From: an uncultured Marinococcus sp.
Lineage (GTDB): Bacteria > Bacillota > Bacilli > Bacillales > Marinococcaceae
NCBI RefSeq assembly: GCF_947493875.1
Contig: NZ_CANLSU010000001.1
Location: 124,001 to 188,000, forward strand
Direction: 5' to 3'
Length of the DNA: 64,000 bases
The position numbers and the translations under genes are program-made. The notes beneath the pieces were generated by a model, which worked only from the letters and a program-made list of their open reading frames with translations, was not told the origin of the DNA and did not search any database. This document shows positions 44,646 to 50,180 of this stretch, piece after piece. Every line of letters begins with the position of its first letter. Position 1 is the stretch's first letter.

Positions 44646-45596
44646 ATGGCAACAAATCTGAATAATTCTGCCTCAACCCTGCAGCAACAGAGTATGTTAA
44701 CGCTGCTTGATTTTTCAGCGGAGGAAATCAAGCAGCTGCTTGAGCTGGCAGCACACATGAAGAAAAACCCCTCCGCTTATTATAATCATCTCGCGCATCG
44801 TTCCCTTGGAATGATTTTTGAGAATGCGTCAACGAGAACCCGCGTGTCCTTTGAGGTAGCTATGACTCAGATGGGAGGCCATTCCTTATTCCTGAGCCCC
44901 CGGGACATGCAGATCGGCCGCGGAGAGCCGATCCAGGACACAGCCAAGGTGCTTTCGAGGTACGTTGATGCGCTGATGATCCGGACAAACGATCACGGAA
45001 AAGTCGAGGCGCTCGCTGAACATGCAGACGTACCGGTTATCAACGCACTCACGGATCTGTATCATCCGTGTCAGGCGCTTGCTGATTTGCTTACGGTGCA
45101 GGAGCGGAAGGGAAGCTTTGAGGGCTTAAAAAGTGTCTTTATCGGCGACGGGAATAATGTCGCCCATTCCTGGATCATAGCAAGCGTGAAAATGGGGATG
45201 GACGCGGTGCTCGCAGCACCGGAAGGGTATGGCCCGGATCCGGACGTATGGAAGCAGATTGAGCAGGCAGCGGAGCAGTCAGGAGCATCTGTCACCCGCA
45301 CAAAAGACCCTGAAGAAGCAGCAAAAGGAGCGGACGTTATTTATACGGATGTATGGACGAGCATGGGCTATGAAGAGGAGCAGGCGAAGCGCCTCGCGGC
45401 CTTTAAAGGCTTTATGATTTCTGAAGAGCTTACGGCAAAAGCTTCGGAAGACTACATGTTTTTACACTGCCTCCCGGCCCACCGGGAGGAAGAGGTAGCG
45501 GCTTCGGTCATTGACGGTCCTCATTCAGCTGTTTATGATGAAGCGGAAAACAGACTGCACGTGCAAAAGGCAATACTTGCTTCGGTCATCGGCTAG
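44646..45596 (+). CDS. argF: ArgF, ornithine carbamoyltransferase
   Basis: ArgF makes citrulline from ornithine and carbamoyl phosphate. The 316 residues carry the carbamoyl-phosphate motif FENASTRTRVSFEVA, the HPCQALADLLTV loop and the ornithine motif HCLPAHREEEV, with the catalytic Cys. It closes the operon, three bases after carB. argG and argH are not in the window, so the last two steps are encoded elsewhere. A terminator follows at 45602. Confidence 0.96.
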   Translation: MATNLNNSASTLQQQSMLTLLDFSAEEIKQLLELAAHMKKNPSAYYNHLAHRSLGMIFENASTRTRVSFEVAMTQMGGHSLFLSPRDMQIGRGEPIQDTAKVLSRYVDALMIRTNDHGKVEALAEHADVPVINALTDLYHPCQALADLLTVQERKGSFEGLKSVFIGDGNNVAHSWIIASVKMGMDAVLAAPEGYGPDPDVWKQIEQAAEQSGASVTRTKDPEEAAKGADVIYTDVWTSMGYEEEQAKRLAAFKGFMISEELTAKASEDYMFLHCLPAHREEEVAASVIDGPHSAVYDEAENRLHVQKAILASVIG

Positions 45597-47332: not shown

Positions 47333-49888
47333 TTAAGACTGATAGCTGTGAATAAGAGATTCAGCGTAATCCAGTGCTTCTTGGGAGGAAGTAATTTCTT
47401 CGTTAATAATCCCTTTTTCGGTTTCGCTGATAATGAATTTATAAAGCGGTCCGGGACGGAGGCCAAGACGTTGAAGTTCAGCGCCAGAAACCCACGACGG
47501 CAGGTCCTGCCACTTGTCCTGGTACTGTCTGAGCAGAGCCGCTTTTTCCGGGTGCCCGGCACTGTATTCAAGGCAGTAAGCAGCAATTTCAACAGAAAGA
47601 GGGGACACATGGGCAGCAGTGCGGTGAAAATCACCGGGTTTTTCGATGGAGGCATCCCAGCTTTCATCGAGCAGGTGGTGTACGTGCCGGACAAGCTGTT
47701 TATCCTGTTTCCGGACGGCGACCCGCTCGGCAGAAAGCACCCGCCCGCTTTCCTGTAGAAATAACGGAAGCAGGGTCATAAACAATGATGACTGGAGACT
47801 GGTAATATACGGAAGAAGCCGTTCGGCCGGGTCGTCCCATACAGCGCCAGGAAGGAACGCAGATAAAACATCAAGCTTCTGAAGACGATAAAACAGCTGG
47901 GCGGGAGGCATTTCGGCAGTCAGGCGCTGAAATTCAGCGAGTATTCTATCAGTAGACAGCGCATGAATAGCATTAACCGCCTGCGCAATAAACGCTTCCG
48001 TCTCATGATCCATCGCAAAGCCAAAACGGTGTTCAAAGCGGACGGCACGGAGGATACGGGTCGGGTCTTCCACAAAGCTTAAATTGTGGAGCACCCGTAT
48101 GGCCCCCCGTTTTAAATCCTCGAGCCCAGAAAAGTGGTCGATGAGATCCCCAAACTCTTCGGGGTGAAGAGCAAGAGCCATGGCGTTGATCGTAAAATCC
48201 CTCCGAAACAGGTCTTCTTTCAGGGTGGAGCTCTCCACGTCCGGCAGGGATCCGGGTTTTTCATAAAATTCGGTCCGGGAGCTTGCGATATCCATTTTTA
48301 ACCCGTCCGGCCAGGTAATCGTAGCAGTGCCAAAGGCTTCGTGCTTGTGGAGTTCGCCGTGCCATTTAGAAGCAATGTCCGAAGCGAAGGCTATACCGTC
48401 GCCTTCAACGGCAATGTCAATATCTTCATTTTCCTTCTGCAAAATAATATCGCGAACGACTCCACCGATCAGATAGGTGCGCAGATGCTGCCGGGCGCCC
48501 TCCTCTCCAACGGCCCGAAGCCACTGCTGGATAGAGTCCGGCAGAGTCATGCGCATATTCTCTTCCATATTGACGGTTTCGGAGGCAGTGGAATCTTCAC
48601 GCAGACGGGCAATAATATCACTGCGCGAGACGAGGCCAATTAATGCTCCGCGGTGATCAATGATAGGGAGCCGTCCGACGTTATGGTGGACCATCTGCTG
48701 CTGCAGTTCTTCAAACCGGTGATAGGGGGCTGCGGTATGGAGATTGGAACTCATATAGCCTTTGACCGGAGCGTGTCCGAGCTGATGGTGCATGGCTTTA
48801 TCAATATCACGACGGGAAATAATGCCGACTAATTCATATTGGTCGTTTACTACCGGAAAGCCGCTGTGTCCGTAACGGAGCACCATATCTTCTGCCTCCC
48901 GGATCGTCGTTTCAGGCTTCAGTGTTTTTACGGGTCTGCTCATCAGTTCTTCTGCCGTAATGGAGCGGCCGATTGCAGATTGAAGCTGTGATTTGATCTG
49001 GTCGTAAACATCGTCGAGCAGCTGATCCTTGATAGTGGCCGATCCGGCACGGGAGTGGCCGCCTCCGCCGAAGGGGGCTAAAATGTCGGGGAGGTGAATA
49101 CGGTCGGTGGCCGAGCGCCCGATAACAAATATTTTGCCCTGGGCCCTGGTTAAAGTAATGACAGCGCTCGCACCGGTTGTTTCTATTAAATTGGAGGTAA
49201 CGGTATTCAAGCCGCCGATATGCTTGTCGCCGGAATCGAATTTGGTAATCAACAGCTGAAGCCCTTCGCGCTCAATGACCTCTGCTGCTCCGAGGTAGGC
49301 CCGCAGAGCATACTGCTGATCCGGAGAAAGTGAATCCTCCATGTATTGACCGACGGTATCCAAATTCATCCCCTGCTCCATTAAAAATACAGCAGCCTGA
49401 AGGTCTCTAAGCGTTGTACTAGGATAGACGAGCGATCCGGTATCGGTATAAAGACCAAGAGCAAAAAGGGTAGCCTCGACCGGAGTAAGAGAAAGCTGGC
49501 GCTGCATCAATTCTTCAATGAGAATAGTGACAGCAGCTCCTGTCGGTTCAATCCGGGCATCAATAGAGGCCTCCGTTGAATCAGGTGTTTCTTTATTTGT
49601 GTGATGGTCATAAATGATCCAGTAAGGAGCCGAGGAAAAGGCAAGACCATCCCTGGCCCGATCCGGCTCGGAGACATCGGTTAAAATCACTGTATGCAGA
49701 TCGTCCCAGTCGATATGCCGGGAGGAAACAAACGGGAATTCATCCTTAAAAAGAGCGAGGTACTCGTTGACTTCCTCGGACTGGTCGTCCTGCAGAACGA
49801 GGCGGGCTTCCGGATAAAGTCTGGAAGCAGCTACAGCAGAAGCGAGAGCGTCAAAGTCCATATGGCGGTGGGTTAAAATTACATCCAT
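47333..49888 (-). CDS. DHH-CBS-tRNA nucleotidyltransferase fusion (probable A-adding enzyme)
   Basis: The product is 851 residues. The order is: DHH phosphoesterase (1-~150, THRHMDFDALASAV and IIYDHHTNKE); DHHA1 (FGGGGHSRAGSA, ~275); two CBS domains (~315-430); a class II nucleotidyltransferase head (~475, LIGGVVRDIILQ with the DxD EDIDIAVEG); and a neck/body with VEDPTRILRAVRFEHRFGF. The same architecture is known for A-adding tRNA nucleotidyltransferases of Aquifex, Deinococcus and some Bacilli, which add the 3' A after a separate CC-adding enzyme. It may instead be a full CCA enzyme; sequence alone does not prove which. Confidence 0.85.
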   Translation of the reverse strand: MDVILTHRHMDFDALASAVAASRLYPEARLVLQDDQSEEVNEYLALFKDEFPFVSSRHIDWDDLHTVILTDVSEPDRARDGLAFSSAPYWIIYDHHTNKETPDSTEASIDARIEPTGAAVTILIEELMQRQLSLTPVEATLFALGLYTDTGSLVYPSTTLRDLQAAVFLMEQGMNLDTVGQYMEDSLSPDQQYALRAYLGAAEVIEREGLQLLITKFDSGDKHIGGLNTVTSNLIETTGASAVITLTRAQGKIFVIGRSATDRIHLPDILAPFGGGGHSRAGSATIKDQLLDDVYDQIKSQLQSAIGRSITAEELMSRPVKTLKPETTIREAEDMVLRYGHSGFPVVNDQYELVGIISRRDIDKAMHHQLGHAPVKGYMSSNLHTAAPYHRFEELQQQMVHHNVGRLPIIDHRGALIGLVSRSDIIARLREDSTASETVNMEENMRMTLPDSIQQWLRAVGEEGARQHLRTYLIGGVVRDIILQKENEDIDIAVEGDGIAFASDIASKWHGELHKHEAFGTATITWPDGLKMDIASSRTEFYEKPGSLPDVESSTLKEDLFRRDFTINAMALALHPEEFGDLIDHFSGLEDLKRGAIRVLHNLSFVEDPTRILRAVRFEHRFGFAMDHETEAFIAQAVNAIHALSTDRILAEFQRLTAEMPPAQLFYRLQKLDVLSAFLPGAVWDDPAERLLPYITSLQSSLFMTLLPLFLQESGRVLSAERVAVRKQDKQLVRHVHHLLDESWDASIEKPGDFHRTAAHVSPLSVEIAAYCLEYSAGHPEKAALLRQYQDKWQDLPSWVSGAELQRLGLRPGPLYKFIISETEKGIINEEITSSQEALDYAESLIHSYQS

Positions 49889-49901
49889 GGCAGCTGCCTC
49901 C

Positions 49902-50180
49902 TTAGTCGTTATTTTTCACATGCATCAAATGGCTGTGGAAATGATTGAGAGCCATCGTAAGAATGGCCTCGGGGCGCGTCTGATCAGCCTCCATGTTCAC
50001 CTCGTCAAAATAGCGGGTGATATCTTCAAGCTGGTCCTTCTGCTCTTTGTATAAGTGCACCTGCAGTACCCGGGTTTCGTTCGCAAGCTCCCGGGCAAGC
50101 TGATTGATGGACTGCTGCAGCTGTTCGGACTCCTTCAGTAGTTCCCGCAGCTGTTTTTGCTTTTCTTCTCGTACAGTCAC
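49902..50180 (-). CDS. Coiled-coil protein of unknown function
   Basis: The product is 92 residues. The first 50 are Gln/Glu/Leu-rich and probably coiled coil (LRELLKESEQLQQSINQLAR). Then IEDITRYFDEV-like (QLEDITRYFDEVNMEAD) and a C-terminal helix with MALNHFHSHLMHV. GTG start at 50180 after GGAGGG. It lies 13 bases upstream of the DHH-CBS gene, so the two are probably cotranscribed. No family was recognised. Confidence 0.65.
   Translation of the reverse strand: MTVREEKQKQLRELLKESEQLQQSINQLARELANETRVLQVHLYKEQKDQLEDITRYFDEVNMEADQTRPEAILTMALNHFHSHLMHVKNND

Follow-up and report, generated by a model that had tools for sequence, protein, structure and literature searches.

A DHH-CBS-tRNA nucleotidyltransferase fusion in Marinococcus is probably the A-adding half of a split CCA-repair system

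The fused gene and its surroundings

The window, by which we mean the whole stretch of 64,000 nucleotides that was analysed, comes from an uncultured Marinococcus. Its minus strand carries a gene in which phosphoesterase, CBS and tRNA nucleotidyltransferase domains are joined. The features of this locus are as follows, with positions in the window and residue numbers of the fused protein.

47333..49888, minus: whole gene, DHH-DHHA1-CBS-CBS-class II tRNA nucleotidyltransferase, a single ORF of 851 aa with an ATG start
49454..49882, minus: DHH phosphoesterase domain, residues 3-145 (Pfam)
49601-49609, minus: DHH triad D94-H95-H96, kept in 118/118 fusions
48980..49231, minus: DHHA1 domain, residues 220-303, with GGGGH at 274-278 (Pfam, marginal score)
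48578..48961, minus: CBS pair, residues 310-437, with predicted adenine-nucleotide sites at D361 and D424 (Pfam, conservation, superposition on AcuB)
48752..48799, minus: inter-CBS linker KxxxHxLxHAPxKxxM, residues 364-379 (conservation in the fusion family)
48095..48478, minus: nucleotidyltransferase head domain, residues 471-598 (Pfam PolyA_pol)
48218..48274, minus: flexible loop of 19 residues (539-557), retained (alignment)
48056..48070, minus: motif D, EDPTR, residues 607-611, nucleotide selection (alignment)
47843..48022, minus: neck, PolyA_pol_RNAbd, residues 623-682 (Pfam)
49897..49903, minus: ribosome-binding site AAGGAGG, 8 nt upstream of the fusion ATG, overlapping the stop codon of the upstream ORF
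49902..50180, minus: upstream ORF of 92 aa, ending just before the fused gene

The C-terminal part has the marks of a class II tRNA nucleotidyltransferase: the head (E 9e-29; PF01743, 100.8 bits against a cut-off of 23) and the neck (PF12627, 26.5 bits against 22) both lie above their thresholds, and the catalytic DxD pair (D489, D491) and the EDxxR form of motif D are present. The DHHA1 match is marginal (26.1 bits against 25.9), and Pfam finds two CBS stretches, the best at residues 313-367. NF041569, the NCBIfam family of A-adding tRNA nucleotidyltransferases, comes top of 31 families and is matched over profile positions 1-705 of 880, with 509.7 bits against a curated cut-off of 1440. The structure model has a mean pLDDT of 84.5, falling below 50 at residues 539-552; since its pTM is 0.52, the arrangement of the domains is uncertain and is left out of the argument. 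Elsewhere in the window, the ornithine carbamoyltransferase gene (44646-45596) gives a weak and probably spurious Glyco_hydro_101 match (25.5 against a cut-off of 25).

Homologues of the full-length type (831-881 aa) are found at 19 other loci of the same order, and they align over nearly the whole length, so the fusion is neither a chance event nor an assembly join. A scan of a genome collection gives matches at 97-98% in M. luteus and M. halotolerans (among the matches listed), which places the window in Marinococcus. In the pieces of 9-10 kb fetched for the 19 fusion loci, fabF is a neighbour in 15 and trpS also in 15. One relative (G026), a poor assembly, has a 370-aa piece instead. A natural split was considered there and rejected: the fabF and trpS genes of that assembly also fall into several pieces, and the break is most likely an assembly error. 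The 92-aa ORF belongs to no Pfam or NCBIfam family and is matched in 9/19 of the relatives' fusion loci; the 13-nt gap suggests that it is probably co-transcribed with the fused gene.

Relation to known enzymes

The fused enzyme is of a kind already known. By sequence, the closest solved chains are 3h37 and then 4wby, and by both sequence and fold the closest enzyme is the CCA-adding enzyme of T. maritima (3h37, 5hc9; Z 30.8). The chains 4wby, 4wc2, 4wbz and 1vfg, which presumably represent AaL, the A-adding enzyme of Aquifex aeolicus, have the same class II head-neck-body-tail fold (Z 25.0-28.9) and are 31-32% identical to the fusion over the aligned part; these solved chains, of 390-410 aa, hold the nucleotidyltransferase part only. 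Native AaL is also fused. Bralley and colleagues reportedly found in 2005 two tRNA nucleotidyltransferases that share CCA addition in Bacillus halodurans, and are said to have described C- and A-adding enzymes in Geobacter sulfurreducens in 2009. As far as the accessible text of PMC3925840 goes, the A-adding enzyme of Aquifex aeolicus works with a separate CC-adding enzyme, and T. maritima has a single enzyme that adds CCA, unlike the two-enzyme genome here. The native T. maritima enzyme likewise has a DHH domain (called Nrn) and CBS domains, and the available part of that report gives these accessory domains as not needed for CCA addition (PMC8208693). In the portions of two further papers open to us, a cluster of CCA-adding enzymes is described among Bacilli DHH-DHHA1 proteins (PMC9757072), and the tRNA nucleotidyltransferases count among the architectures given for DHH-DHHA1 proteins (PMC12709177).

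A second enzyme with a shortened loop

The preliminary description had predicted a separate CC-adding enzyme in this genome. The search for a second class II nucleotidyltransferase finds exactly one further PF01743 gene, making two in all, and the prediction holds; the refuting outcome, a genome with no other nucleotidyltransferase, did not occur. Its product is 385 aa long, and alignment gives its flexible loop 7 residues, against 19 in the fusion. Deletion of this loop is the published mark of bacterial CC-adding enzymes, in the part of PMC4797355 that is accessible. By the same alignments, the loop has 19 residues in 20/20 fusions, 21 in 29/29 single CCA enzymes and 4-11 in 21 second enzymes of the same order. 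The genome has the sequence features of a split CC- and A-adding system: a second class II enzyme, a partner without the full loop and a fusion with it.

The two genes occur together throughout the sample of the own genome plus 60 relatives (61). The fusion is present in 28/28 genomes of the same family (in pieces in the poor assembly G026) and in 4/33 from the order's other families; all 32 fusion genomes have a second enzyme, and all 29 fusion-less genomes have one enzyme. As the 61 genomes are related, these are not 32 independent cases. The second enzyme is an open frame of at least 378 aa in 31/32, the other (G023) having 260 aa. In a 22-row alignment of second enzymes, G28, G29, D44, R99, D100, D142, P143 and R145 are invariant, which argues that the short-loop enzymes are not decaying genes. 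This bears on the main rival reading, in which the fusion would add the whole of CCA, as the T. maritima enzyme does, and the 385-aa enzyme would be a helper or a decaying duplicate: residues kept in all 22 rows speak against gene decay, and a second nucleotidyltransferase kept in every fusion genome of the order also speaks against this reading.

The partner also tells against taking the fused protein for a poly(A) polymerase instead of a tRNA enzyme. The Pfam name of the head, PolyA_pol, and a match to NCBIfam pcnB (83.3 bits) point that way, but the pcnB cut-off is 305.65 bits, and the structures that match best belong to CCA-adding enzymes and related enzymes of tRNA. Moreover, this reading needs a separate A-adding activity, yet the sole other enzyme has lost its loop. 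On the scores and the partner this identity was dismissed, and we regard it as highly improbable.

The shortened loop reaches outside the order: among 41 partners that were measured, 39 have loops of 3-13 residues, one has 17 (G112) and one 20 (G071). Two further fusion genomes have long-loop second enzymes, of 18 (G103) and 20 residues (G104). The second enzymes are 351-425 aa long in the same order and 433-530 aa outside it (L183-L202). Many of these out-of-order enzymes carry, by eye, an HDxGK stretch typical of HD domains.

The locus of the partner and its origin

The short-loop gene of the own genome has bshA on one side and birA on the other, names that we assigned from the sequences. 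The same two genes flank the second enzyme in 20/20 further loci, and the single CCA genes have birA as a neighbour in 29/29 and bshA in 28/29, so that the short-loop gene is the positional counterpart of an ordinary cca. In 20 loci elsewhere in the phylum (pieces of about 3.5-4.4 kb), bshA and birA neighbours are absent. Since the partner occupies the usual cca locus, it appears to be the resident CCA enzyme, reduced where it stood. In a tree of 18 second and 29 ordinary enzymes with the loop columns removed, and with the near-copies L083, L084 and L102 left out, one change separates the two kinds (support 88), and the tree of bshA plus birA also gives one change (support 91). The trees are therefore compatible with a single origin of the short-loop enzymes in this order; the long branches of several short-loop rows make their placement unsure. 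Such branches could also mean relaxed constraint, as would suit a partner that the fusion does not need.

CCA encoded in the tRNA genes

All 47 tRNA gene contexts of the own genome (47 tRNA matches) encode CCA, so the fusion and its partner probably repair tRNA ends. Across the seven hand-chosen, related genomes compared, coverage being partial outside the own genome, CCA is encoded in 55/55 contexts from 61 matches (G052) and 61/62 from 70 (G032) in two further genomes with fusion and partner, and in 72/72 from 94 in one with the fusion alone (G149). The single-enzyme genomes encode it in 32/43 contexts from 50 matches (G045), 67/75 from 96 (G036) and 35/59 from 84 (G038). Under another de-duplication, the counts become 34/45 in G045 and 56/56 in G052. 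This contrast between fusion and single-enzyme genomes is suggestive only.

Fusions without a partner

Evidence that a fusion may act as a full CCA-adding enzyme comes from the wider phylum. In a sample of 91 genomes, 35, the own genome included, have a frame of more than 800 aa carrying the head domain, and 11 of these 35 show only one PF01743 gene; completeness is 93% or higher in nine of these. The 20 long frames that were fetched all match the fusion profile, including all nine without a partner, one of which (G143) starts at profile position 69, at a contig end. A search of the 11 single-PF01743 genomes with a profile of CC-type enzymes brought up no second enzyme. Five positive controls scored E 6e-101 or better with it; four of them (G000, G064, G078, G123) had contributed rows to the profile and one (G098) had not. 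Two weak matches, G077 (E 0.005) and G118 (E 0.008), are not counted as second enzymes; both are confined to profile positions 233-328, which lie outside the head. Named loci gave access to 50 genomes: a second match is present in 41 and absent from nine, eight of these nine being MAGs. In a tree of 83 fusions, from which seven near-duplicate loci had been dropped, the partnered and lone states change at least five times, or 10 times counting MAGs, and the direction of change cannot be told.

An attempt to separate A-adding from CCA-adding fusions by loop length or motif D gave nothing, as both are alike in lone and partnered fusions. Full CCA addition is presumably the activity of some fusions, and the one described here could share it. 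With nine partner-less fusions in genomes at least 93% complete, and the same layout of DHH and CBS in the T. maritima enzyme (PMC8208693, in its accessible part), the layout by itself does not prove A-adding activity. The preliminary description had proposed a probable A-adding enzyme from the domain layout. That assignment now draws its support from the partner gene, and the layout does not decide it. Weighing the partner-less fusions, with their ordinary loop and motif D, against the second enzyme kept across the order, we judge full CCA addition by the Marinococcus fusion unlikely, though the most serious of the rivals.

Some relatives of the fusion in the phylum sample lack accessory domains. 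One (G093, L229 2209-3558; 449 aa) consists of the transferase only, yet matches fusion profile positions 1-18 (i-Evalue 1.5e-4), a pattern that would fit loss of DHH and CBS through an internal deletion. In another (G070, L235 2218-4191; 657 aa), DHH is joined to the transferase and the CBS part is unmatched. Relatives without DHH and CBS, or without CBS, fit accessory rather than essential roles for these parts.

The DHH and CBS parts

Conservation was read from 118 fusions. The order and the phylum sample contributed 20 each, and the other 78 come from the best 80 named loci (L117 and L163 were left out, having no full ORF match); the set leans to close relatives and holds some species twice. 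All 118 keep D71, D94, H95, H96, D149, D162, G277 and H278, and D11 and D13 show no exception among the 115 that are ungapped at these positions. In the CBS pair, G355, G405, R406 and G418 never vary, 117/118 have D361, and position 424 is D in 97/118 and N in 21. Columns kept in at least 95% of the fusions number 23/131 in CBS, 30/146 in the transferase head, 19/190 in DHH, 5/119 in DHHA1 and 14/251 in the neck-body-tail; the named residues of the linker reach the same level. Such near-invariance of key residues suggests that the DHH and CBS parts are both probably functional.

The fusion carries the motifs of DHH-DHHA1 phosphoesterases, namely the DHH triad, the metal-binding Asp residues and GGGH, and shares the DHH and GGGH motifs with NrnA, GdpP and DhhP; structure comparison also likens its DHH core to GdpP. 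These motifs make it probable that the N-terminal part, of the NrnA/GdpP superfamily, is active as a metal-dependent phosphodiesterase. NrnA differs in an R-x-R-x-R motif suggested to bind substrate, in the accessible text of PMC9757072; the fusion lacks it and reads GRSATDR at 257-263, where R258 is kept in 115/118 fusions and R263 in 42/118. The idea that the fused DHH part replaces a missing NrnA was rejected, because DHH also occurs in three more frames of the own genome; their lengths, 816, 660 and 336 aa, suggest RecJ, GdpP and an NrnA-like protein.

The DHH core also resembles family II pyrophosphatases (Z about 21, rmsd 2.5 over about 180 residues), and CBS-regulated pyrophosphatases exist, according to the part of PMC11172384 available. 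The domain could then be a built-in pyrophosphatase that hydrolyses pyrophosphate and drives nucleotide addition forward. This is made less likely by the second subdomain, which is a DHHA1 with GGGH as in NrnA and GdpP, and residues 1-309 best match DhhP and GdpP by sequence, with a pyrophosphatase fourth of five; we think such a role quite improbable, and keep to the phosphodiesterase assignment.

The CBS pair superposes on AcuB (Z 19.8-19.9, rmsd 1.4 over 124 residues), whose solved structures have bound AMP, ADP or ATP, and matches it by sequence (E 4.3e-10). AcuB is a CBS sensor of adenine nucleotides in which Asp52 and Asp122 hold the ribose, one of them having Arg51 next to it, and it has a C-terminal ACT domain, to go by the accessible portion of PMC13121692; Pfam finds no ACT domain in the fusion. 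Both CBS sites of the fusion have an acidic residue at the ribose site, D361 and D424, and on a reading of the motifs these and R360 look like the counterparts of Asp52, Asp122 and Arg51. The CBS pair is thus predicted to bind adenine nucleotides, and probably regulates one or both activities of the chain. A literature search, covering mostly papers outside subscription and these in part, brought up no work that we recognised on the function of DHH or CBS in the fused enzyme.

A model for the two enzymes

Putting the partner, its loop and its locus together, we propose, with a probability of roughly 0.78, that tRNA CCA repair is split between two enzymes here and that the fused protein is the A-adding half. 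Its transferase portion, from head to tail (about residues 440-851), would add A76 to tRNA ending in CC, and the 385-aa partner, encoded elsewhere in the genome, would add C74C75. The deleted flexible loop would keep the partner from switching to ATP. The pair would serve mainly to repair damaged or trimmed tRNA ends.

A bolder version would make the fusion a self-contained, energy-sensing machine for tRNA ends, in which CBS reads AMP/ATP, DHH cleans ends or fragments, by removing faulty 3' nucleotides or clearing short adenylated fragments, and the transferase restores A76. Taken jointly these steps are speculative, and we hold the whole to be doubtful. The catalytic residues of DHH are invariant and CBS is about as conserved as the head, though both parts are reported as dispensable for CCA addition in T. 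maritima, and this makes their role a well-posed question.

Marinococcus is a halophile that is not known to be pathogenic, and the short-loop partner in its bshA-cca-birA locus offers a clear case in which a resident CCA enzyme seems to have been cut down at its own locus, with a fused enzyme encoded elsewhere supplying the last step. If the fusion did work as such a machine, lineages that acquired it, which encode CCA in nearly every tRNA gene, could let the resident enzyme shrink to a CC-adding helper.
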